The notes under the pieces were generated by a model. It saw only the letters and a list, made by a program, of their open reading frames with translations. It did no database searches and was not told where the DNA came from. Position numbers and translations under genes: made by a program. A stretch of 64,000 nucleotides of DNA, from contig NZ_CP039252.1 in assembly GCF_004795855.1 (NCBI RefSeq), positions 4,526,001 through 4,590,000 on the forward strand. The letters run 5' to 3'. This DNA comes from Hydrogenophaga sp. PAMC20947. GTDB lineage: Bacteria; Pseudomonadota; Gammaproteobacteria; Burkholderiales; Burkholderiaceae_C. Positions 4,785-24,060 of the stretch are shown piece after piece; position 1 is the first letter of the stretch; each line of letters starts with the position of its first letter.

Positions 4785-5024
4785 TCAGGGCGCAGCCTGT
4801 TCGTCTTGCTGCCGGTGCTCGGTTGAGCAGTAGTGGCCGCGAGGACCTTTGACGGACTCTGTTTCAGGTAAATGGGTGCCGCAATGCAGGCAAGCCACCA
4901 TGTTGACTGGCAGGGCGGTGGGCTCTGGCCGGGAAGGGCGCTGACGTTGGATGTCTTCGCGGCGGTTGTTGCGCCAGACCCAGAAGCCGATCAGAACAAC
5001 GCTCAGAACCAGTAGGTATTTCAT
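4785..5024 (-). CDS. PP0621 family small zinc-ribbon-like membrane protein
   Basis: Protein of 79 aa: an N-terminal membrane anchor (MKYLLVLSVVLIGFWVW), a basic stretch, and a C-terminal CLHCGTHLPET...HYCSTEH motif that looks like a zinc-binding knuckle (Cys-x2-Cys and Cys-x3-His). It resembles the PP0621 family, for which I know no experimental function. It sits between the CcsA-like gene (16 bp upstream) and pilS (29 bp downstream), an order I recall as conserved in Comamonadaceae. Membership is fairly sure; function is unknown. Confidence 0.7.
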   Translation of the reverse strand: MKYLLVLSVVLIGFWVWRNNRREDIQRQRPSRPEPTALPVNMVACLHCGTHLPETESVKGPRGHYCSTEHRQQDEQAAP

Positions 5025-5040
5025 GAAAAGGACCAGGTCA

Positions 5041-5841
5041 TCAGGCGCGGTGGAGAATTACTTCGAGCACGAAGCGCGAGCCGACATAGCCCAGCAGCAG
5101 CAAGCCCGCACTGAGGTAAAGCATGCGAACGGCGGTGCGCCCTCGCCAGCCCAGACGCCAGCGCCCCAGCAGCAAGACACCCAAGACCAGCCAGGACAAC
5201 ACCGAGAAGGCGGATTTGTGGTCCCAGACCCAGCGCTGGTTGATCACCTCGGAGAACCAGCCGCCCACCAGCAGGGTCGCACTGAGCAATACAAAGCCAG
5301 CCCCGACAAAGCGGAAGGTGAGGCGCTCCAGGGTGAGCAGGGGCATGGCGGTGTCCAGCGTTGTGCCCATGCGCATGGCCTTTTCTGCGCGCTGCATCAA
5401 CCACGCGTGAACAACAGCTGCTGCGACCAGGCCGTAGGCGGCGATACCCAGGGCCCAATGCAGGGGCATCCAGTGCGACGGCAGGCTGGGGTGGTGGGTG
5501 CCGGGGAACACCAGTGCGATGAGGACCACAACCATGCCCATGATGGCCAGCGTCCAGCGGGCGCGCAACTGGGGATACAGGCGGCTTTCCACCAGATAGA
5601 CCGTGAGCAGCAACCAGGCGGTGACCGACAGAGCGGGCGCGAATCCAAAGCGCACGGGGTGGGTCGTGAGGCTGACAAGCAGCACGAGCAGGTGCAGTAT
5701 CCAGGCAGCAGAGAGCAGGCCGCGTGCCTGGATGGGCGTGACACGGTTGTGCAGGCCTGCCAGCGCCGCATACGCCAACGCAGCGCCGACTGACAAGGCG
5801 CTCGCAAGGGGATGGACAGAGAGGACGGACAACAGGGGCAT
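5041..5841 (-). CDS. CcsA/HemX-like cytochrome c assembly family inner-membrane protein
   Basis: Polytopic protein of 266 aa with about eight hydrophobic helices and the CcmF/CcsA-type core (HWALGIAAYGLVAAAVVHAW, then WVWDHKSAFSVLSWLVLG near the end). Related proteins (YpjD/HemX-like) are annotated as cytochrome c assembly proteins, but the exact role of this subgroup is unsettled. I chose the ATG at 5841; the open frame extends upstream to 5982, but that extension lacks membrane character. It is divergent from ffh, an arrangement common in proteobacteria. Confidence 0.75.
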   Translation of the reverse strand: MPLLSVLSVHPLASALSVGAALAYAALAGLHNRVTPIQARGLLSAAWILHLLVLLVSLTTHPVRFGFAPALSVTAWLLLTVYLVESRLYPQLRARWTLAIMGMVVVLIALVFPGTHHPSLPSHWMPLHWALGIAAYGLVAAAVVHAWLMQRAEKAMRMGTTLDTAMPLLTLERLTFRFVGAGFVLLSATLLVGGWFSEVINQRWVWDHKSAFSVLSWLVLGVLLLGRWRLGWRGRTAVRMLYLSAGLLLLGYVGSRFVLEVILHRA

Positions 5842-14548: not shown

Positions 14549-15340
14549 ATGGCGTTTGTCTCTGCACTCACCCTTGATACCCTGTGGGTCTTGCTCTGCA
14601 TCGGCCTGGCCTCGTACGTGCAGAACCTCACTGGGTTTGCCTTCGGCCTGATCTTTTTGGCACTGGTGGGCGTGTTTGATCTGCTGCCCATTGCCGAAGC
14701 CGCCAACGCGGTGACCTTGATCACCCTGACCCAGACGCTGATCTATTTTCGGGAGTACCCGCTGACGCCAGAATGGCGCGTGGTGAAGCCGGTGATTGTT
14801 CCCAGCCTCATTGGTGTGTTGGCGGGACTGGGTTTGCTGGTCTGGTTCAGCTCCAGCGCTTTGTACCTGTTGAAAATTGCGCTGGGTGTGGCCGTAGTGG
14901 GGTCATCGGCCTTGCTGGTCATGCGGTTCAAACCCAAAACCCAGATGGATTCACCCGCTTCATTTGCTGTCATTGGCGTGTTCTCTGGCTTGATGGGCGG
15001 GCTGTTTTCCACCGCCGGCCCTCCGCTGGTCTACAAACTCTATCGGCAGCCGCTCAGCCTGCCGGTGGTCCGCCAGGCGCTGCTGGTGATGTTCGGCATC
15101 AACCAGCTGGTTCGCCTGATCGTCGTGGTGGGCGCCGGTCAGTTGACCCTGGCCTCGCTGGTGCTCGCCGTGATGGCGCTTCCCCTGCAGTTTCTGGTCA
15201 CGCGGGGCAACCGGCAATACCCGTTGAACATGTCGCCCGTGGCCATTTCTCGACTGTCGGCCGGTCTGCTGTTCATGGCGGGTTGCGGGCTGAAGATGAA
15301 GGAACTGGGGCGTCGAAACCCACACTGTCGATCAGCTTAG
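14549..15340 (+). CDS. Sulfite exporter TauE/SafE family permease
   Basis: 263-aa membrane protein with about eight helices in the TauE/SafE pattern (ASYVQNLTGFAFGLIFLAL at the N-terminus, SGLMGGLFSTAGPPLVYKLY in the second half). The ATG at 14549 fits the family. Members export sulfonate or sulfite-type anions or move other small anions; the substrate here is unknown. It ends convergently with opgH, the two stops overlapping by 4 bp. Confidence 0.82.
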   Translation: MAFVSALTLDTLWVLLCIGLASYVQNLTGFAFGLIFLALVGVFDLLPIAEAANAVTLITLTQTLIYFREYPLTPEWRVVKPVIVPSLIGVLAGLGLLVWFSSSALYLLKIALGVAVVGSSALLVMRFKPKTQMDSPASFAVIGVFSGLMGGLFSTAGPPLVYKLYRQPLSLPVVRQALLVMFGINQLVRLIVVVGAGQLTLASLVLAVMALPLQFLVTRGNRQYPLNMSPVAISRLSAGLLFMAGCGLKMKELGRRNPHCRSA

Positions 15341-17322
15341 ACCGCTTTCAAGGCCAGGCGACTGGCGTGCTTCCAGGCGCGGCGCAGCACCGCAGGCGAC
15401 CACGACTCTTCTGGAATGATGAGCACACCTTGGGTGCGGAGCCAGACCCCCAGGGACACGTGGCTGGTCAGGACAGTGAGTGGAATGGCCAGCAAAAGGG
15501 GCAGCGCCACTGGTGCCAACCACATCAAGGCTTGGGGGCTGAACATGGCCACACCCGTGGCGACCGCCACAGCCGCCAGTGTCATGGGGGTGAGCTGACG
15601 CAGTGCATCGCTCCAGGCCACGCCGTTGGCTTCACGGGGTGGGGATTTCCATTCCAGCTTCCAGCCGGTGATCGCAATCAACACAAACAAGGTGTGGCCG
15701 AGCATGCGCACCGGGGCTTGCAAAACCGCCAACAGCGTCTCCAGACCGGTGTTGACCACCAACGCCAGGCCGCCGCCAAACTGCTTTTGTTCGCGCTTCA
15801 AGAACACCGCTGCCAGACCCAACACGCGCGGCATGAAAAGCAGACACAGCGTCCAGGCCCACAAGCCAAGCAATTCAGCAGGCACCACGCCCTCAAAGCC
15901 GGCGCTGCCACCCTGATGCAGCCACAGCGCGGTGCCCACGCTCAAAAACGCCAGCCACAGCGGGGCCGATACATACGACATTGCGCCCACAACAAACATG
16001 GCTCGGTGCACCCGGTGAATACCGGGTTCAGCGCACAGGCGTGAGTTTTGCAAATTGCCCTGGCACCAGCGGCGGTCGCGCTGCAACTCGCTCAACAAAT
16101 CGGGGGGTTGTTGTTCGTAGCTGCCCGTGAGGTCGGACACCAGCCACACGTGGTAGCCGGCACGGCGCATGAGTGCGGCCTCGACGAAATCGTGCGACAT
16201 GATGCCGCCGGCCATGCCGCCGTGGCCTTCAATCGGTGCGAGCGCACAGTGCTGCATAAACGGTTGCATGCGGATGATGGCGTTGTGGCCCCAGTAGTGG
16301 GATTCGCCGAGTTGCCAGAACTGCATGCCGAGGGTAAACAACCGCCCAGTCACGCGCGAACCAAACTGCTGCACCCGCGCATGCAGTGTGGCGTGCCCAA
16401 TGGACTGCGTGGCGGTTTGAATGATGCCGGCGCTGGGGTTGGCGTCCAGCAGCTTGGCCAGGTTCACCAGGCATTGGCCGCTCATCACCGAATCGGCATC
16501 CAGCACCACCATGCTGTCGTAGTCTTTGCCCCAGCGGCGGCAGAAATCGGCCACGTTGCCCGCCTTGCGGTGACTGCGGCGCGTGCGCAGCCGGTAATAC
16601 ACCTCGATGGGGGCCTGGCCACCGGGCCCGCTCAGATCGCTGCGCAGTTGTGCCCAGGCACTTTTTTCGGCCACCGCAATGGCGGGGTCGTGGCTGTCTG
16701 AGAGTACAAACACATCAAAAAATCGCGCGTGGCCGGTGGCGGCCAGCGACTCGCAGGTCGCGCGCAGCCCGGCAAACACCGTGGCCACATCTTCATTGCA
16801 GATGGGCATGATGATGGCGGTGCGCTTGTCGGGGCTGAGCGTGCGGTGCACCACTTGCCCGGCCGAGAGGGCGTGCTTGTCGCCAAACAGCAGCACCCAG
16901 AAGCCCATCCAGGCGGTCACGAAGCCGACCACGACCCAGGCCGAGAGCACCACAAACAGCACCAGTTGTGTGCCTTGCAGCCAGGCATTGCCGCCCGCGG
17001 GCTGCAGGTGTGCATACAAGGCGCTGGCCAAGGCTGTCCACAGCACGATCAACCCGGTCAGCACCGCCCGGCGGCGCCCGGCGGCCTGTTGCCAGGGGGC
17101 CGGGACGGGCTTGGCTTGGGCAGGCTCGCGCGGTGGCAGCCAGGTGCTGGCCTTGGCCAGCACGGCTGAGCCCAGGCTGTTCCAGAAACCGCGCCAGGGC
17201 AGCGGCGTCATGGATCCACGGTGGATGAGTGGTGCCGTGGCCGCGGTGGGGTGGCGTTCTTCACGCACCGCGCTGCGGCGTGGACCGGCCGTTTTCACTG
17301 GGGCAGCAATAGGTGTGTCCAT
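15337..17322 (-). CDS. opgH: Glucans biosynthesis glucosyltransferase H
   Basis: Inner-membrane family-2 glycosyltransferase that polymerises the beta-glucose backbone of osmoregulated periplasmic glucans. The 661-aa protein has N-terminal helices (LTGLIVLWTALASALYAHL and the next), a large cytosolic catalytic domain with VVLDADSVM and the product-binding motif QRDRRW, then several C-terminal helices. Length is shorter than E. coli OpgH (about 850 aa). Its start overlaps the end of opgG by 28 bp, so it should be translated with opgG from the promoter upstream of that gene. Confidence 0.93.
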   Translation of the reverse strand: MDTPIAAPVKTAGPRRSAVREERHPTAATAPLIHRGSMTPLPWRGFWNSLGSAVLAKASTWLPPREPAQAKPVPAPWQQAAGRRRAVLTGLIVLWTALASALYAHLQPAGGNAWLQGTQLVLFVVLSAWVVVGFVTAWMGFWVLLFGDKHALSAGQVVHRTLSPDKRTAIIMPICNEDVATVFAGLRATCESLAATGHARFFDVFVLSDSHDPAIAVAEKSAWAQLRSDLSGPGGQAPIEVYYRLRTRRSHRKAGNVADFCRRWGKDYDSMVVLDADSVMSGQCLVNLAKLLDANPSAGIIQTATQSIGHATLHARVQQFGSRVTGRLFTLGMQFWQLGESHYWGHNAIIRMQPFMQHCALAPIEGHGGMAGGIMSHDFVEAALMRRAGYHVWLVSDLTGSYEQQPPDLLSELQRDRRWCQGNLQNSRLCAEPGIHRVHRAMFVVGAMSYVSAPLWLAFLSVGTALWLHQGGSAGFEGVVPAELLGLWAWTLCLLFMPRVLGLAAVFLKREQKQFGGGLALVVNTGLETLLAVLQAPVRMLGHTLFVLIAITGWKLEWKSPPREANGVAWSDALRQLTPMTLAAVAVATGVAMFSPQALMWLAPVALPLLLAIPLTVLTSHVSLGVWLRTQGVLIIPEESWSPAVLRRAWKHASRLALKAV

Positions 17323-18935
17323 ACTTCGCTCACGCTCTGGTTTTGGTGTTGGAGAAAGGCGCGCAGCTCCACCGGTTTGGCCGGATCGACGCGGGCCACC
17401 TGCAGGCTCATGCGCCAGGTGCGAGTAGCTGGGTTGGGGTAGGTCGTGGCTTCGAGCACGCGGCCATTGCCGTCGGTGTTCACCACGGCTTTGAGTTCGG
17501 TGCCCGCGGGCAGTGAGTCCAGCGCCGGACCCTTGAAATCGAGCACATATTGGGGCTGGGCGTCTTGCTCGGCAGCGCTGCGCTGGGTGTAGCCGTAGCC
17601 CCTGCGGCTCTGGGTGACCCAGCTGCCAGGTGGGCGCTGAAACTGGTCACCTTGCCAGTGAACTTCGTAGGAAAACGCCAGTGGCTGGCCGGGTTCGGGC
17701 AGCTTTTCGGGCACCCAGTAAGCGACCACGTTGTCCTGGGTTTCGTCGGGGGTCGCCAGTTGAACCAGTTCGACCCGACCCGCGCCCCAGTCACCCAAGG
17801 GAACGACCCAGGCACTGGGGCGACGCTCGTAGCGCGCTTCCACGTCTTCGTAGTGGTCGAAGTTGCGGTCGCGCTGCATCAAGCCAAAGCCGCGGATCTG
17901 TTGGGCTTGAAAGGAATTCACCAACACGTCGGCAGCAGGACGTTGCAACGGGCGCCACAACCACTCTGGTCCATGGGGGCCGTCGGTGTGCAGCATCAGG
18001 CCGTCGGAGTCGTGAACTTCAGGGCGGTAGTCGCGTGCGTTGGGTTGGTTGTCACCCGACACAAACATGCTGGTCAGCGGTGCAACGCCCAGGGTGTTGA
18101 TGGGGGGGGCGCCGCGGCGCACATGCAGCTGTGCGCGCACTGTTGCAACCGACTCGGGGCTTTGCTCGGTGCCGGGACGGATCACAAACTGGTAGGCGCC
18201 GGTGACACGCGGTGACTCGAGCAAGGCGTACAGGGTGACTTCTTTCGCGTCGGGGGCAGGGCGCTGCAACCAAAACTCGGTGAAGCGCGGGAATTCTTCG
18301 CTTTGCCCAGCGGGAGCGCCCACGGTGTCGATGGCCAGCCCACGGGCCGACAAGCCAAACTGCTGGTCGCGCCCGAGCATGCGGAAGTAGCTGGCACCCA
18401 GGAACACGGCCAGCTCGTCCTTGTAGGCCGTGTTGTTCAGCGGGTAGTGCAGGCGCAAGCCCGCAAAACCGAGATCGCCCCAGGCCTGGGTGTCAGGCCG
18501 CTGGTGTTTGAATTCCTGGCCAAAGCCGAACAGGTCGCCGCTGTAGGGAATGAAGCGTGCCTGGCCGAGGGCGTCGATTTCGTGCACACGCACCGGTTGC
18601 TTCTGGTTCAGGCCGAGGTGGAAGTACTGCACCTCAAACGGCAGGGCTTGTTGGCGCCAGGTCGACTGCTCGGTTTTGAACCGGATGTCGCGCAGCTGGT
18701 CGTAGTTGAGGTTTTTCACCTCGGTGGGCAAGGTGTCGCTGATTTCGCTCCAGGGCGCCTGAGCGCGGGTTTTCGCGAGCTGGGCCAGGCTCTGCCAGTC
18801 AAAAGCATTGGAAGCAGTCCGCACCGGCTCTGCGGCCAATGCCGCCGGGGCCAGAGCCACAACCAGCAGCGCTGCGCACAGCCAGCGGACTGTGCTGCCC
18901 TGGCGGTGGTGGATGGGGGGGGAACGAGCGTCCAT
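17295..18935 (-). CDS. opgG: Periplasmic glucans biosynthesis protein G
   Basis: Periplasmic partner of OpgH needed for glucan assembly or branching. The 546-aa product has a Sec-type signal peptide (hydrophobic core WLCAALLVVALAPAALA, cleavage after AALA) followed by the MdoG fold (FDWQSLAQLAK; YDQLRDIRFK; PYSGDLFGFGQEF; a C-terminal immunoglobulin-like part). The ATG at 18935 is preferred to an upstream TTG at 18950 because the latter overlaps the -12 element of a sigma54 promoter. There is little Shine-Dalgarno sequence, and the predicted transcript starts at or next to this ATG. Confidence 0.93.
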   Translation of the reverse strand: MDARSPPIHHRQGSTVRWLCAALLVVALAPAALAAEPVRTASNAFDWQSLAQLAKTRAQAPWSEISDTLPTEVKNLNYDQLRDIRFKTEQSTWRQQALPFEVQYFHLGLNQKQPVRVHEIDALGQARFIPYSGDLFGFGQEFKHQRPDTQAWGDLGFAGLRLHYPLNNTAYKDELAVFLGASYFRMLGRDQQFGLSARGLAIDTVGAPAGQSEEFPRFTEFWLQRPAPDAKEVTLYALLESPRVTGAYQFVIRPGTEQSPESVATVRAQLHVRRGAPPINTLGVAPLTSMFVSGDNQPNARDYRPEVHDSDGLMLHTDGPHGPEWLWRPLQRPAADVLVNSFQAQQIRGFGLMQRDRNFDHYEDVEARYERRPSAWVVPLGDWGAGRVELVQLATPDETQDNVVAYWVPEKLPEPGQPLAFSYEVHWQGDQFQRPPGSWVTQSRRGYGYTQRSAAEQDAQPQYVLDFKGPALDSLPAGTELKAVVNTDGNGRVLEATTYPNPATRTWRMSLQVARVDPAKPVELRAFLQHQNQSVSEVWTHLLLPQ

Positions 18936-18946
18936 GCCTTGATACG

Positions 18947-18961
18947 GCAAGCCCCGTGCCA
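18947..18961 (-). promoter_or_regulatory. sigma54 (-24/-12) promoter of opgGH
   Basis: On the minus strand the sequence TGGCACG-GGGC-TTGC (18961 down to 18947) matches the sigma54 consensus TGGCACG-N4-TTGCW at all positions except the last W. The predicted start is about 12 bp downstream, at or beside the opgG ATG (18935). It is preceded by an IHF site and two GlrR-type operators, the full arrangement expected for a bEBP-driven promoter. Confidence 0.75.
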
Positions 18962-18980
18962 GGGCTGAAAAACGCTTTTA

Positions 18981-18993
18981 AATCAAGGGCTTA
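18981..18993. promoter_or_regulatory. IHF binding site
   Basis: AATCAAGGGCTTA is an exact match to the IHF consensus WATCAANNNNTTR. Its centre is about 52 bp upstream of the predicted opgG start, between the sigma54 promoter and the GlrR-type operators. IHF bending at this place is typical for sigma54 promoters activated from a distance. Confidence 0.65.
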
Positions 18994-19055
18994 GATCGAA
19001 AAGTTGATGGCAGCCGGTGAATTTATCTTCCAGAGCAAGGGAAAACCCTCAATTT

Positions 19056-19073
19056 TGTCGCTATGTGGCGACA
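19056..19073. promoter_or_regulatory. GlrR-type operator 1 (TGTC-N10-GACA)
   Basis: TGTCGCTATGTGGCGACA fits the operator pattern TGTC-N10-GACA known for enterobacterial GlrR at glmY. The arms extend to a 7-bp perfect inverted repeat (TTGTCGC/GCGACAA). It is centred near -130 relative to the predicted opgG start and lies about 50 bp past the glrR stop, so the regulator gene adjoins its presumed site. Confidence 0.7.
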
Positions 19074-19122
19074 AGCTGAGTGTGGGTTTGTAAAAAACCC
19101 TTAAAAATCAACCCACTAACGG

Positions 19123-19140
19123 TGTCACTCACCAGCGACA
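19123..19140. promoter_or_regulatory. GlrR-type operator 2 (TGTC-N10-GACA)
   Basis: TGTCACTCACCAGCGACA is a second exact TGTC-N10-GACA match, centred near -197 and overlapping the 3' end of glrR. Its inner bases are not palindromic, unlike operator 1. The centres of the two sites are 67 bp apart. Two sites in under 90 bp is far more than expected by chance. Confidence 0.6.
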
Positions 19141-20519
19141 ACATCGTCGCTACCCGCCTTGAACAGGCCTGGTGTGAGCCCGTGCTTTTGCAGCAGTCGG
19201 TAAAACTCGGTGCGGTTGCGTTGCGCAAGGCGGGCCGCGTCGGCTGCGTTGCCATCGGTCATTTTCAGCAAATCGACCAGATAAGCGCGCTCAAAGCGTT
19301 GTTTTGCATCGGCAAAACTCAAAACCTCCACCGCCGGGCCGCTGCGCAGCGCGCGCTGCACCAGCGACAGCGGCACCAGCGGCGTGGTCGACAGGGCGCA
19401 CACCTGCTCGACCACGTTGTAGAGCTGGCGCACATTGCCCGGCCAGGGAGCCTGTGACAAGCACTTCAGCGCCTCGGGCGAAAACCCCGAACTGCGCTTG
19501 GCGTATTTGGCCGCGAGCTTGGCCAAGAAGTGGTTCGCCAAGAGGGTGATGTCTTCACGCCGTTGGGCCAGTGTGGGCAAATGCAAGGTGACCACATTGA
19601 GCCGGTAGTACAGGTCTTCGCGAAACTGGGCGCTTTCCATGGCGGCGTCCAGGTCGCGGTGGGTGGCGGAGATGATGCGCACATCGACCGGAATCGACTG
19701 GCTGGAGCCCAACGGGCGCACCGCGCGCTCTTGCAGAACGCGCAGCAGCTTTACCTGCAGGGCCGGCGGCATGTCGCCGATCTCGTCCAGCAGCAGGGTG
19801 CCGCCGTGGGCCATTTGAAAGAGGCCTTTGTGGTTGGCCACGGCATCGGTGAACGCGCCTTTCATGTGGCCAAACAGCTCCGACTCGAGCAGTGCTTCAG
19901 GAATGGCGCCGCAATTCACTGCCACAAACGGCTTGCCCGCGCGAGGGCTGGCTTTGTGAATGGCGCGGGCAAGCAACTCTTTGCCGCTGCCGCTGTCGCC
20001 GCGCAGCAGCACGCTGGCATCCGACTGCGCCACCAGGCGCGCCTCGGCCAGCAGATCGGCAATGCGAGTCGAACGGCTCACGATCTCGCTGCGCCACGTT
20101 TCGTCGGCGAGCGGGCCCGGTTCGTTGGGTGCGCTCAAGGCGGCGGCCTGAGCGATTTTCTCCAGCAGGTCTTTCGAGTCAAACGGTTTCGTGAGGTAGG
20201 TGAACACGCCTTTGGCGGTGGCGGCCACTGCATCGGGAATGGTGCCGTGGGCGGTGATCAGAATCACTGGCAACGCGGGGTGGCGCTGGCGAATTTCGTC
20301 AAACAGCGCCAGGCCATCGCGTCCGGGCAGGCGCACGTCGGAGAGCACCACCTGCGGGCGTTCGATCTCCATGTGCGCCAGCGCCGCTTCGGCCGAGCCC
20401 ACGGAGGTCACCGCATAGCCAGCCGCATTCAGGCGCATGGAGAGCAGGCGCAGCATGTCTGCATCGTCGTCGACCACCAGCAGGCGCACACGTTGGGTCG
20501 GGGCGGTTTGTTGGCTCAT
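19125..20519 (-). CDS. glrR: GlrR (QseF/YfhA)-type sigma54 response regulator
   Basis: 464-aa NtrC-family regulator: receiver with phosphoacceptor Asp61 (VVLSDVRLPGRDG), AAA+ domain (Walker A GDSGSGKE, Walker B LLLDEIGDMP, arginine-finger region FREDLYYRLN) and a C-terminal Fis-like HTH (NAADAARLAQRNRTEFYRLL). The sigma54-contact loop is GAFTDA with Asp225, not the usual GAFTGA. Neighbours glrK and a small qseG-like lipoprotein match the E. coli glrK-qseG-glrR operon. Start and stop overlaps with the lipoprotein gene (ATGA) show coupling. Likely target: opgGH directly downstream. Confidence 0.87.
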   Translation of the reverse strand: MSQQTAPTQRVRLLVVDDDADMLRLLSMRLNAAGYAVTSVGSAEAALAHMEIERPQVVLSDVRLPGRDGLALFDEIRQRHPALPVILITAHGTIPDAVAATAKGVFTYLTKPFDSKDLLEKIAQAAALSAPNEPGPLADETWRSEIVSRSTRIADLLAEARLVAQSDASVLLRGDSGSGKELLARAIHKASPRAGKPFVAVNCGAIPEALLESELFGHMKGAFTDAVANHKGLFQMAHGGTLLLDEIGDMPPALQVKLLRVLQERAVRPLGSSQSIPVDVRIISATHRDLDAAMESAQFREDLYYRLNVVTLHLPTLAQRREDITLLANHFLAKLAAKYAKRSSGFSPEALKCLSQAPWPGNVRQLYNVVEQVCALSTTPLVPLSLVQRALRSGPAVEVLSFADAKQRFERAYLVDLLKMTDGNAADAARLAQRNRTEFYRLLQKHGLTPGLFKAGSDDVVAGE

Positions 20520-21205
20520 GGGCGGACAGGTCGAGGCCCGTGGGGTGGGGGGGGCGCATTCATGCTGCGCTCAATCGCGCGCATGGCGTCGAGGCGCTCA
20601 TTCAAGGCGTCGATCCGGCGCTGGCTCTCACGCAGCTGTTGGGTGGTCCGCTCCAGGTTGTCCTCAAGGCGGCGGATGGTGGTGAGGTTGTCTATCAACA
20701 CATGCGCCAGCGCTGTGTACGCGCTGGCATCGGCCTCCGTGCTGGAAGCCACCCGCTGGAGCAAGCCCAGGGCCCTTGCGGTTTCCACCGGCTCACGGGT
20801 TTGCAGCAGGGCGAGTGCAAACTGCATCAGGATTTTGGGACTGGGGGCAACGGCGGGTGAGGTGCCCTGGCCCGACTTGGGGACTTGGGTCCCCTGCGTG
20901 ATCAGCTCCTGCTTGCGCTCGACCGCGCCCATGGCTCGCAAGCGTTCGGCATACCGCAACAGGTCGGCCAGTGCATCTTCGTCGGTTGTGACCGTTGCCG
21001 GATTGGGCACTGGGGCGGTCTCGGTCACCGGTGCGGCAGCTGCAGCGCTGGTCGGCGCAGCCACCTCGACAGCGGCGGGCGCAGACGCGGGCGGCGAGCT
21101 GTGTTGACACGCTGCCAGCAGTGCGCTGCATGCGGCCACCGCCAGGCGGCTACGGCCATTCCTCAGGCGCCGCGTTCGGTTCGCGGTGTCGATCTCAATG
21201 CGCAT
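20516..21205 (-). CDS. QseG-like outer-membrane lipoprotein of the Glr system
   Basis: 229-aa lipoprotein: a basic N-terminus, a hydrophobic segment and lipobox LLAAC, then an Ala/Pro/Val-rich linker, a helical domain (LADLLRYAERLRAMG; LMQFALALLQTREPVETARAL) and a coiled-coil tail rich in Arg/Gln/Glu. In E. coli, QseG sits in the same position and activates the GlrK (QseE) kinase. Sequence similarity to QseG is weak by eye, so the call rests mainly on position and architecture. It overlaps glrK by 11 bp and glrR by 4 bp. Confidence 0.65.
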   Translation of the reverse strand: MRIEIDTANRTRRLRNGRSRLAVAACSALLAACQHSSPPASAPAAVEVAAPTSAAAAAPVTETAPVPNPATVTTDEDALADLLRYAERLRAMGAVERKQELITQGTQVPKSGQGTSPAVAPSPKILMQFALALLQTREPVETARALGLLQRVASSTEADASAYTALAHVLIDNLTTIRRLEDNLERTTQQLRESQRRIDALNERLDAMRAIERSMNAPPPPHGPRPVRP

Positions 21206-22616
21206 GGGGTAGTTCAATCCTGAAGTGCGTGGTGTTGGGCCGGCTGCGCACCAGGCGCACCCGTCCACCATGGGCTTTGACATATTCCTGCACGATAGAC
21301 AAACCAATACCGGTGCCACGCACTGCGTCGACCGGTTGGCGTTCACCGCGGTAAAAGGGTTCAAAAATACGTTCCCAGTCGGCCTGCGCAACGCCAGGGC
21401 CTTGATCGATGATGTCAATGCCCACGCCGTCGGCGTCTTGCGCCAGGCGCAGCACAATACTGGCCCCAGCGGGCGAAAACCGAATCGCATTCAGCAACAA
21501 GTTGCCCACTGCCGAGCTCATTTTTTTCCGGTCCAGAGGCAGTGTGACCGCTTCGCCCTCTACCCGCACCACCAGACCGCGACTCTGCCAGTTCAAGCGC
21601 TGTTCCTCGATTTGCGCTTCGAGGAGGCTGCGCACGTTGGTGGGTTCGCGCTGGAGTTGTTTGGCGTCAAACGCAGCGGCATTGAAGCTGAGCAGCGCCT
21701 CAATCTGTTGCTGCAGCAAGTCGGTGTTGTGCCGCAAGATGTGGACCACCTCGGCTTGGCTGGGCGTGAGTGCGCCGGCCACGCCGTCGCCCAGCACCGC
21801 CACGCCCTCGTGTAGCGAGGCCAGCGGAGTTTTCAGCTCGTGCGAGACGTGACGCAGAAAGCGTGCCTTGTCGTCGTCGAGTTCGGTCAGGCGAATGCGC
21901 AGCCATTCGAGCTGCTGGCTGACCCGCCGCACATCGCGCGGGCCTGCGATGTTGATGGCTCGATCCAGCTGGTTTTGACCCAAACCCGCGATGGCTTGTT
22001 CCAGACGCTTGAACGGGCGCGCCAACCACACGCCAAACGCCAGCGCCAGCAATGCAGCAAGCAGAATCGAGCCAGTGACCTGTTGCGTGAGTTGCTCTCG
22101 GCTGCGATCCAAGCTCATCTGCAAGGCCACATTGCGCCGCGCGATGATGGCCTGCACCTCTTGCCCCAGCGCCACGTTGTGGCCATCGAGGGCGCGAAAG
22201 GCGCTGGCCACGGCTTGCTCGCGCTCCAGAGCGGTTTCGGGTTCACCATCCAGAAGCGCGGTGATGGCTTGCAACTGGTCGCGCCATTCCTGAATGCGTT
22301 GGGGCGTGACCTCGTTGTCCTGCAGACGTTCTACGATATCTCTCGCGTGCTGGGCGGTGTCGTCGAAATTGGCGCGCAGCACCGCATCACGCAGCACCAG
22401 CGATTGACGCGCACTGCGCTCCATGTTTTCGCTGCGCTCGCGCAGCGACTGCGCATCGGTCGACAGCTCGATCGCCAAGCTCGCGCCGGCACTGGACTGC
22501 GCCATCAGTCGCTCCAGCGAGAACAGCGCACGCACCGCCACTGTGCCCAACAATGCGCCAATGAGCAAAAACGCGACCATCAACAGCTGGGGAAACGAAA
22601 ACGGAGAAGCCCTCAA
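21195..22616 (-). CDS. glrK: GlrK (QseE)-type sensor histidine kinase
   Basis: 473-aa inner-membrane kinase: first helix [19 protein letters not shown], a helical periplasmic region of about 145 residues, second helix [16 protein letters not shown], a HAMP region, the H-box [13 protein letters not shown] with His259, and an ATPase domain with [13 protein letters not shown]. This matches GlrK, which phosphorylates GlrR in response to envelope signals. Its start overlaps the miaB stop (ATGA), so miaB, glrK, the lipoprotein and glrR probably share a transcript. Confidence 0.87.
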
Positions 22617-23983
22617 GGTGTTGCGTCGGCGGTGATGACCACTTCACCGCGCAAGGAGTGCGCGGTGGCTTGCGTGATGTGCACATCGATCATCTGTCCC
22701 ACCAGGCGTGCGCCGTTGGGGCCACCATGAAAATTCACCACACGGTTGCACTCGGTGCGCCCCATGAACTCGGGCGCTTGGGGCGTGGACTTGCGTGAAG
22801 GGCCTTCCACCAGAATGCGCTGGACCGTGTCCAACCGGCTGGCGCTGATACGGGCCACGTTGGCTTCGATCGTGGCCTGCAGGTGTTGCAGGCGCTTGAG
22901 TTTCACGGCGTGTGGTGTGTCGTCGAGCAGGTTGGCCGCCGGTGTTCCGGGGCGCGGGCTGAAGATGAAGCTGAAGCTGATGTCAAAGCCCACGTCGTCG
23001 ATAAGTTTCATCGTCTTGCCGAAGTCTTCTTCGGTCTCGCCAGGGAAGCCGACGATGAAGTCGCTGCTCATCTGGAGATCTGGCCTGATGGCGCGCAGCT
23101 TGCGCACCGTGCTCTTGTATTCCATGGCCGTGTAGCCGCGCTTCATCGCCATGAGGATGCGGTCGCTGCCGTGTTGCACCGGCAGGTGCAGGTGGGTGAC
23201 CAGCTTGGGCAGCTTGGCATACGCCTCGATCAGTCGCGGCGTGAATTCGTTGGGGTGGCTGGTGGTGTAGCGGATGCGTTCGATGCCGGGGATATCGGAC
23301 ACGTATTCGAGCAGCAAGGCGAAGTCGGCGATCTCGCCGCCTCCCTTTGAAGCGCTGCCCATGGGGCCGCGGTAGGCGTTGACGTTCTGGCCCAGCAAAT
23401 TGACTTCGCGCACACCCTGGTCGGCCAGGCCGGCGATTTCCACCAGCACATCGTCAAATGGCCGGCTCACCTCTTCGCCGCGCGTGTACGGCACGACACA
23501 GTAGCTGCAGTATTTGGAACAACCTTCCATGATGGAGACAAAGGCGCTGGCACCGTCCACCCGCGCGGGTGGCAAGTGGTCGAACTTTTCGATTTCGGGA
23601 AAGCTGATGTCCACCTGGGGCTTGGACAACTTGACGCGCGCATTCAGCAACTCGGGCAACCGGTGCAGCGTTTGCGGGCCGAAGACCACGTCCACATACG
23701 GTGCGCGCTTGATGATCTCGGCGCCTTCCTGGCTGGCCACACAACCGCCCACGCCGATCAGCACGCCCTTTTTCTTCAGGTGCTGCACCCGGCCGAGGTC
23801 GGAAAACACTTTCTCTTGCGCCTTCTCGCGCACCGAGCAGGTGTTGAACAAGATCAGGTCGGCTTCATCCACATTTTTGGTGGGTTCGTAGCCTTGGGCT
23901 GCATGCATCACGTCGGCCATCTTGTCCGAGTCGTACTCGTTCATCTGGCAGCCGAAGGTTTTGATAAAGACTTTTTTGCTCAT
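22613..23983 (-). CDS. miaB: tRNA-2-methylthio-N6-isopentenyladenosine(37) synthase MiaB
   Basis: Radical-SAM methylthiotransferase that modifies A37 of tRNAs reading UNN codons. The 456-aa product has the N-terminal cluster-binding Cys12 (FGCQMN), Cys49 (NTCSVR) and Cys81 (GGCVAS), the radical-SAM motif [17 protein letters not shown], and a C-terminal TRAM domain ([18 protein letters not shown]). Length is typical. It is the first of four overlapping genes ending with glrR. A fragment similar to its last part is found near 14.27 kb. Confidence 0.96.
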
Positions 23984-24060
23984 GGTCTTGAGAATAGAAA
24001 TGGAATGAGAAGCCGGCCGGCATGCGGCACAGCATTGAAGTTCAGCAGGGGCGGGGGGCG

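Follow-up and report, generated by a model that had tools for sequence, protein, structure and literature searches.

A GlrR-type σ54 promoter predicted to drive the periplasmic glucan operon opgGH from a leaderless or nearly leaderless start in Hydrogenophaga and its relatives

Before the glmY gene of Escherichia coli, the response regulator GlrR (also named QseF), helped by integration host factor (IHF), binds three upstream activating sites (UAS) with the consensus TGT-N12-ACA, as described in passages of PMC6075780. In E. coli K-12, TGT-N12-ACA sites lie at -230, -197, and -134 relative to glmY, the middle one reading TGTCGCTTTCTGGCGACA and being followed 9 bp further by the IHF-like TTGATTTTAA. 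The same passages describe a QseF-activated σ54 promoter at E. coli rpoE, another GlrR target in envelope homeostasis, although that gene is unrelated to opgGH. As for leaderless transcripts, passages of PMC3616915 report 171 mapped leaderless mRNAs in Sinorhizobium meliloti, all of which start with AUG. Here, we analyze a window of 64,000 nucleotides (nt) from Hydrogenophaga sp. PAMC20947 (contig NZ_CP039252.1, positions 4,526,001 to 4,590,000), in which the periplasmic glucan operon opgGH is preceded by a promoter resembling that of glmY, with glrR lying just upstream. Our reading of the sequence is that GlrR, with IHF and σ54, very probably drives opgGH in the window and in those relatives that keep both. 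We are highly confident that a GlrR-activated, IHF-assisted σ54 promoter drives opgGH, with an mRNA predicted to be leaderless or nearly so.

The elements of this promoter all lie on the minus strand. UAS1, the distal putative GlrR site (TGTCGCTGGTGAGTGACA, 19123..19140), overlaps the glrR stop codon, while the proximal UAS2 (TGTCGCCACATAGCGACA, 19056..19073) is separated by 94 bp from the σ54 site; both are exact matches to TGTC-N10-GACA. A weaker IHF-like core (TTGATTTTTAAG, 19100..19111) can be read between the two UAS, and a candidate IHF site, exact for WATCAA-N4-TTR (TAAGCCCTTGATT, 18981..18993), sits immediately 5' of the promoter. The candidate -24/-12 element (TGGCACGGGGCTTGC, 18947..18961) matches TGGCACG-N4-TTGC exactly and is followed, 12 nt past the C of its -12 element, by the opgG ATG (18933..18935), which is also the predicted 5' end of the mRNA. 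An earlier note on this DNA had listed four elements, the two UAS, the IHF site, and the σ54 site, at offsets of -197, -130, -52, and -24/-12. All four are present and exact, and these offsets are consistent with a start at 18935.

Lone motifs of this kind prove nothing, since each element singly is within chance for 64 kb: when the window was shuffled, at least two UAS matches were found in 29/100 shuffles, a σ54 site in 14/100, and an IHF site in 31/100. It is the arrangement that is telling. The only TGTC-N10-GACA pair with a gap of 35-65 bp in the 4,850,867-bp genome is the one found here, and the combination TGTCG-N8-CGACA, 80-110 bp, TGGCA-N6-TTGC likewise has a single occurrence in the genome, each with a reversed control of 0. 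By comparison, TGGCAC-N5-TTGC is found at 27 sites genome-wide, with 10 in the reversed control. The gene for σ54, rpoN, was found in the genome. A terminator scan of the glrR-opgG gap gave one weak minus-strand candidate (19138-19113), with three hits in total vs. 0.9 in shuffles. We also considered whether the gap hides a GlmY-like small RNA (sRNA) and rejected this, as no Rfam match was obtained for positions 15300-24000 of the window at E up to 1, in a search that did return GlmY in a Pantoea control (L085).

The promoter is conserved well beyond the window. A scan with GlrR found at least 586 relatives, from which the best 80 loci were kept; opgG lies downstream of glrR in 29 of these, in Hydrogenophaga, Acidovorax, Ramlibacter, Polaromonas, Melaminivora, Methylibium, Roseateles, Rubrivivax, and an unclassified relative. 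A hand-chosen sample of 53 opgG upstream regions from GlrR-bearing genomes of the family (L136-L188) was added together with the window, and six duplicates were removed (L009, L010, L049, L053, L056, and L063), which left 77 distinct opgG promoters spanning 25 genera plus the named-genus loci. A σ54 site scoring at least 10 of 11 is present in 72/77, a proximal UAS scoring at least 10 of 12 in 73/77, and a distal UAS at the same threshold in 76/77, while 71/77 show an IHF-type TGAT core 21-25 nt 5' of the -24 element. The earlier note would have taken loss of the elements in relatives as a refutation, and no general loss is seen: each is kept in 71 to 76 of the 77 promoters, with constrained spacing. 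A second TGAT core 2-30 nt past the distal UAS, mostly at 11-12 nt, is seen in 39/76 promoters (1/76 for a control stretch).

The distance from the proximal UAS to the σ54 site is not continuous. It falls into clusters of 60-64, 73-76, 82-85, 92-95, and 104 bp, which are about one helical turn apart, as expected for an activator bound to one face of the helix. Five random centers would be equally phased, with a period of 10-11 bp, with a probability of 0.0014, a figure to be read knowing that the real centers were set after the data had been seen.

The promoter also tracks GlrR. As a negative set, we used 20 of 27 opgG genes (at least 47% identity) in genomes without a GlrR hit, hand-chosen among the matches listed (L116-L135). 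One of these, L131, was first taken as lacking GlrR and carries the full set of elements; the end of its contig encodes the C-terminus of GlrR, and it was relabeled and is not among the 77. In the remaining genomes without a GlrR hit, the UAS pair was found upstream of opgG in 0/19. When a composite pattern of UAS plus σ54 site was run over 399 genomes of the family, it matched 55 places in 54 genomes, and none in the reversed control. By coordinates, 47 of the places are within 1 kb downstream of glrR, two are at unlinked opgG genes, and six are near neither gene; these six look like chance, leaving 49 genomes with a relevant site. Being strict, the pattern passes over promoters whose gaps differ or in which one base is changed. 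In the two unlinked cases, glrR is either ~50 kb from opgG (G119) or on another contig (G282), and the UAS pair, IHF core, and σ54 site are still found before opgG. The promoter set likewise stays with opgG in L144, where the glrR-opgG gap is ~1.8 kb, and in L029. The latter, from a Polaromonas metagenome-assembled genome (MAG), carries ~0.7 kb of extra DNA (4797-5510) between glrR and the opgG promoter. These unlinked and spaced cases indicate that the promoter belongs to opgG rather than to the end of glrR.

Some points weigh against GlrR control. Because the sequences share ancestry, the promoters counted are not independent of one another; no more than four GlrR candidates were scored in each genome of the family, which makes the absences of GlrR soft; and the regulator of the window scores 596.5 bits against the NCBIfam model for GlrR (NF011695), below its cut-off of 763, although this is its best match of 110 NCBIfam families. 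Its assignment as a GlrR orthologue relies on best match, gene order, and 56% identity with the E. coli protein, and not on the NCBIfam rule. Taken together, conservation, position, phasing, co-occurrence with GlrR, retention at unlinked loci, and likeness to glmY strongly support, but do not prove, what the earlier note had claimed, namely that the product of the adjacent glrR gene activates opgGH.

A feature missed by the earlier note is the near-coincidence of the predicted transcription start with the opgG start codon. The opgG ATG lies 12-15 nt past the C of the -12 element in 60/77 promoters: at 12 nt in 6, 13 nt in 40, 14 nt in 11, and 15 nt in 3. In 17 of the 25 genera, all sampled members show this spacing. 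For comparison, the annotated +1 of E. coli glmY is 13 nt past the same C and the start of the Pantoea GlmY model is 12 nt past it. Since the ATG lies about as far from the -12 C as the glmY start does, the opgG mRNA should begin at the AUG or no more than ~3 nt before it, and we predict from these distances that it is leaderless or nearly so. Several signal peptides begin directly at this ATG, MWRTLWLSLCLAWPLAGWA in L175 for instance, and so allow no later start; L143 (MQISFSLRHALGLSALLALGSAQA) is another example. No later in-frame ATG precedes the aligned part of OpgG in 50/60 cases, and no later ATG, GTG, or TTG in 28/60. The case for a leaderless mRNA is strong for the main clade only.

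The spacing constraint on the AUG outlives opgG itself, its position being taken by a small open reading frame (ORF) or by opgH. In 16 loci, mostly Variovorax, opgG was not found, and a conserved ORF of 66-70 amino acids (aa) has its ATG at 13 nt. In five other loci, the first gene is the opgH ORF, with its ATG 14-15 nt past the -12 C. The MdoH identity of the first or following gene was confirmed in L011, L043, L032, L033, and L062, and the opgH start motif was found in 15 opgG-less loci. The small ORF, which has a CVFKRFPAIGDTP-like C-terminus and precedes opgH in Variovorax and allies, is found at 5565-5768 of L011 and also in L012-L015, L018-L022, L024, L025, L027, L043, L045, and L046. 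Its protein gave 107 hits including itself, with no function name among the matches listed.

A different picture is seen at eight GlrR-adjacent loci of Herbaspirillum, Chitinimonas, Roseateles, and Niveibacterium (L050, L054, L055, L059, L061, L064, L065, and L073), where a σ54-like site precedes a gene for a BON-domain protein (PF04972) and UAS matches are patchier. There, the ATG is 59-71 nt past the -12 C and is preceded by a Shine-Dalgarno (SD) core in 8/8, which argues that the short spacing belongs to the opg promoter lineage and not to all GlrR-adjacent promoters. The BON-domain gene is perhaps another lineage-specific target of GlrR. Further sites were noticed on the way. One of them, TGGCACATTCATTGC, recurs in L205 (1501-1531), where it precedes an ORF for a PAS-histidine kinase, and in G406, G410, G413, and G420, each time 12-15 nt before an ATG, so that other leaderless σ54 genes may exist in relatives of Hydrogenophaga. 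Another, TGGCACC(C/T)TTATTGCTGA, recurs ahead of an ATG in L201, G114, G406, G407, G408, and G410; in L201, it precedes only a 19-aa ORF. In two Rhodocyclaceae loci (L069 at 1724 and L072 at 1735), UAS-like and σ54-like sites lie 5' of the regulator, the σ54-like site being on the opposite strand, which is perhaps a divergent target.

Several observations speak against a leaderless start, and they make up much of the case for the best surviving alternative, in which the promoter depends on GlrR but the mRNA has an ordinary leader because OpgG starts at a downstream codon or transcription starts further upstream. We regard this as possible but clearly the less likely of the two. A later in-frame ATG, GTG, or TTG exists in 32/60 cases (ATG in 10/60), so that a downstream start is possible there, and a codon-position test of the OpgG N-terminus gave no clear outcome (41, 36, and 49). 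The 17/77 promoters without an ATG at 12-15 nt must use another start, and they mean that leaderlessness is not universal: the ATG is distant in g139 (41 nt) and, at 52-54 nt, in three of four g95 loci and in two loci from Rubrivivax MAGs; no fitting ATG exists in members of g6, g54, g59, g97, g119, and g129. Ribosome-binding sites help little. An SD core precedes the opgG ATG in 0/60 cases, which, with a base rate of 3.9% in random 13-mers of these regions, means that there is no SD signal rather than that SD is depleted; looser purine 4-mers occur in 16/60, the window itself has AAGG just 5' of the opgG ATG, and an SD core is scarce at opgH too (only 3/15). The argument for a leaderless mRNA consequently leans on spacing and not on SD. 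It is on spacing that an ordinary leader fares less well, because 12-15 nt is held in 60/77 promoters, including all sampled members of those 17 genera, and recurs with the small ORF (67 aa) first in 16 loci or opgH first in five. In addition, several signal peptides begin at the ATG, and glmY starts 12-13 nt past its -12 C.

The regulator of the window is encoded by glrR (qseF), a σ54 response regulator gene (19125..20519, minus strand) with a receiver domain (PF00072) and a σ54-interaction domain (PF00158). No helix-turn-helix Pfam model is listed for it at E up to 0.001, and we assign its C-terminal helix-turn-helix because of likeness to the E. coli stretch, as in NRTEFYRLL vs. NRTEFYKLL in E. 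coli GlrR. The GAFTGA loop with which bacterial enhancer-binding proteins contact σ54 was not found as such, the window regulator reading GAFTDA. In loops of this type, the F and T residues contact σ54, and both are kept in GAFTDA. This variant is present in 45/52 opg-type GlrR loci vs. 0/28 other loci (one of the 28 being unreadable), an association that may reflect only ancestry; L056, L062, and L063 combine short ATG spacing with GAFTGA. It is very unlikely, in our view, that a different σ54 activator binds the UAS while GlrR is only a neighbor. Genomes of the family do contain up to 209 GlrR-like candidates each, not all of which are activators, and G039, G134, G200, and G243 encode a second GlrR-like protein, but the promoter tracks the presence of GlrR in the sampled sets, the UAS fit the GlrR consensus TGT-N12-ACA given in passages of PMC6075780 as well as the sites at E. 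coli glmY, and the C-terminal helix-turn-helix stretch of GlrR is conserved.

Marginally less likely still is that the UAS pair serves glrR itself, as an autoregulatory or read-through element, and that opgG merely lies downstream. That UAS1 of the window overlaps the stop codon of glrR fits this, as does the finding of 47/55 composite places within 1 kb downstream of glrR. However, the -24/-12 element faces opgG and not glrR, the sites stay with opgG in G119, G282, L029, and L144, and where opgG is missing the promoter abuts the small ORF or opgH. Chance matches to loose consensus sequences, which could account for each element alone in 64 kb, are ruled out as an explanation by the reversed controls, the phasing, and the conservation across genera, and we give them practically no weight.

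The genes around the promoter lie on the same strand and complete the setting for GlrR control of opgGH. Downstream are opgG (mdoG, 17295..18935, minus strand; PF04349, 583 bits), for a periplasmic glucan biosynthesis protein, and opgH (mdoH, 15337..17322, minus strand; NF003960, 1071 bits for a cut-off of 829), for a glucan glucosyltransferase, whose ORF overlaps the end of opgG. Upstream, the order of kinase, lipoprotein-like protein, and regulator resembles that of the glrK-qseG-glrR operon. The sensor histidine kinase gene glrK (qseE, 21195..22616, minus strand) shows HisKA and HATPase_c domains and 31% identity to E. coli GlrK (E 6e-53). The gene in the qseG position (20516..21490, minus strand) is called lipoprotein-like from this position and a LLAAC lipobox-like motif in its translation, and its true start is probably inside this ORF. 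It gave no family match and does not resemble E. coli QseG significantly, and the input signal may therefore be a different one.

From these elements, we infer binding and activation by GlrR and a signal passing along a GlrK-GlrR-opgGH chain. GlrK, perhaps with the QseG-like lipoprotein, would sense the state of the envelope and phosphorylate GlrR, oligomers of which would bind the two sites of TGTCGC-N6-GCGACA type. IHF would bend the DNA between the UAS and the promoter, and the AAA+ domain of GlrR would open RNA polymerase-σ54 at TGGCACG-N4-TTGC. Transcription would start at the A of the opgG ATG or up to ~3 nt earlier, opgG and opgH would be transcribed, and periplasmic glucans would be made. 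We lean slightly toward a further reading, in which the σ54 promoter has its start fixed on the AUG of whichever gene comes first, so that a leaderless opgGH mRNA is conserved in many genera, with SD-free, stress-favored translation. If true, translation of opgGH without an SD sequence could be favored when ordinary initiation is impaired, and GlrR would couple envelope stress to privileged translation of the glucan enzymes.

Osmoregulated periplasmic glucans are important in envelope integrity, in osmotic adaptation, and in interaction with hosts, and to our knowledge little is known of the transcriptional control of their synthesis. In a large family of environmental bacteria, the promoter would bring opgGH under the control of one particular system for sensing the envelope. 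A natural series for studying leaderless translation from a σ54 promoter is also at hand: opgG, small ORF, and opgH, predicted to be leaderless, and the leadered BON genes. The earlier note knew of no description of GlrR controlling opgGH, and there is none among the literature matches listed, most subscription papers being outside their scope; the same matches contain no report of GlrR or σ54 control of opgGH (mdoGH) in Proteobacteria and no description of a conserved leaderless σ54 mRNA. Neither "opg" nor "glucan" occurs in the main text of PMC3162934, and the passages covered of PMC6075780, PMC3162934, PMC3616915, PMC3844500, and PMC9045368 describe neither GlrR control of opgGH nor a conserved leaderless σ54 mRNA.

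Compared with described systems, the operon itself is ordinary: the opgGH (mdoGH) operon of Proteobacteria has the same gene content and order and the same OpgG and OpgH families as the window. Leaderless mRNAs are not new either, but those of S. meliloti were mapped, whereas the opgG case is predicted, tied to a σ54 promoter with its enhancer-binding protein, and conserved across genera. The closest likeness is to E. coli glmY, for which the GlrR-IHF-σ54 design cited by the earlier note was borne out, as the same architecture is found there. Both promoters have TGT-N12-ACA sites and a σ54 -24/-12 element, with a regulator operon alongside, glrK-qseG-glrR in E. coli and its candidate counterpart in the window; the glmY RNA starts 13 nt past the -12 C, within the 12-15 nt at which most opgG ATGs are found; and the IHF-like TTGATTTTAA, 9 bp past one UAS of glmY, resembles the core that roughly half of the opg promoters have after UAS1. 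They differ in the number of UAS (three at glmY and two in the window) and in the weak overlapping σ70 promoter of E. coli glmY described in passages of PMC6075780, no σ70 promoter being found in the glrR-opgG gap by a consensus scan of 18850-19400. They differ also in the target, which in E. coli is an sRNA gene upstream of the regulator operon and in the window is a glucan operon downstream of it. GlrR may thus change its target from one lineage to another (an sRNA, a glucan operon, a BON-domain protein) while the promoter design is kept. The opgGH promoter would extend a known GlrR promoter type to a target not described before in the matches listed, and its start, predicted to be leaderless, is unusual.

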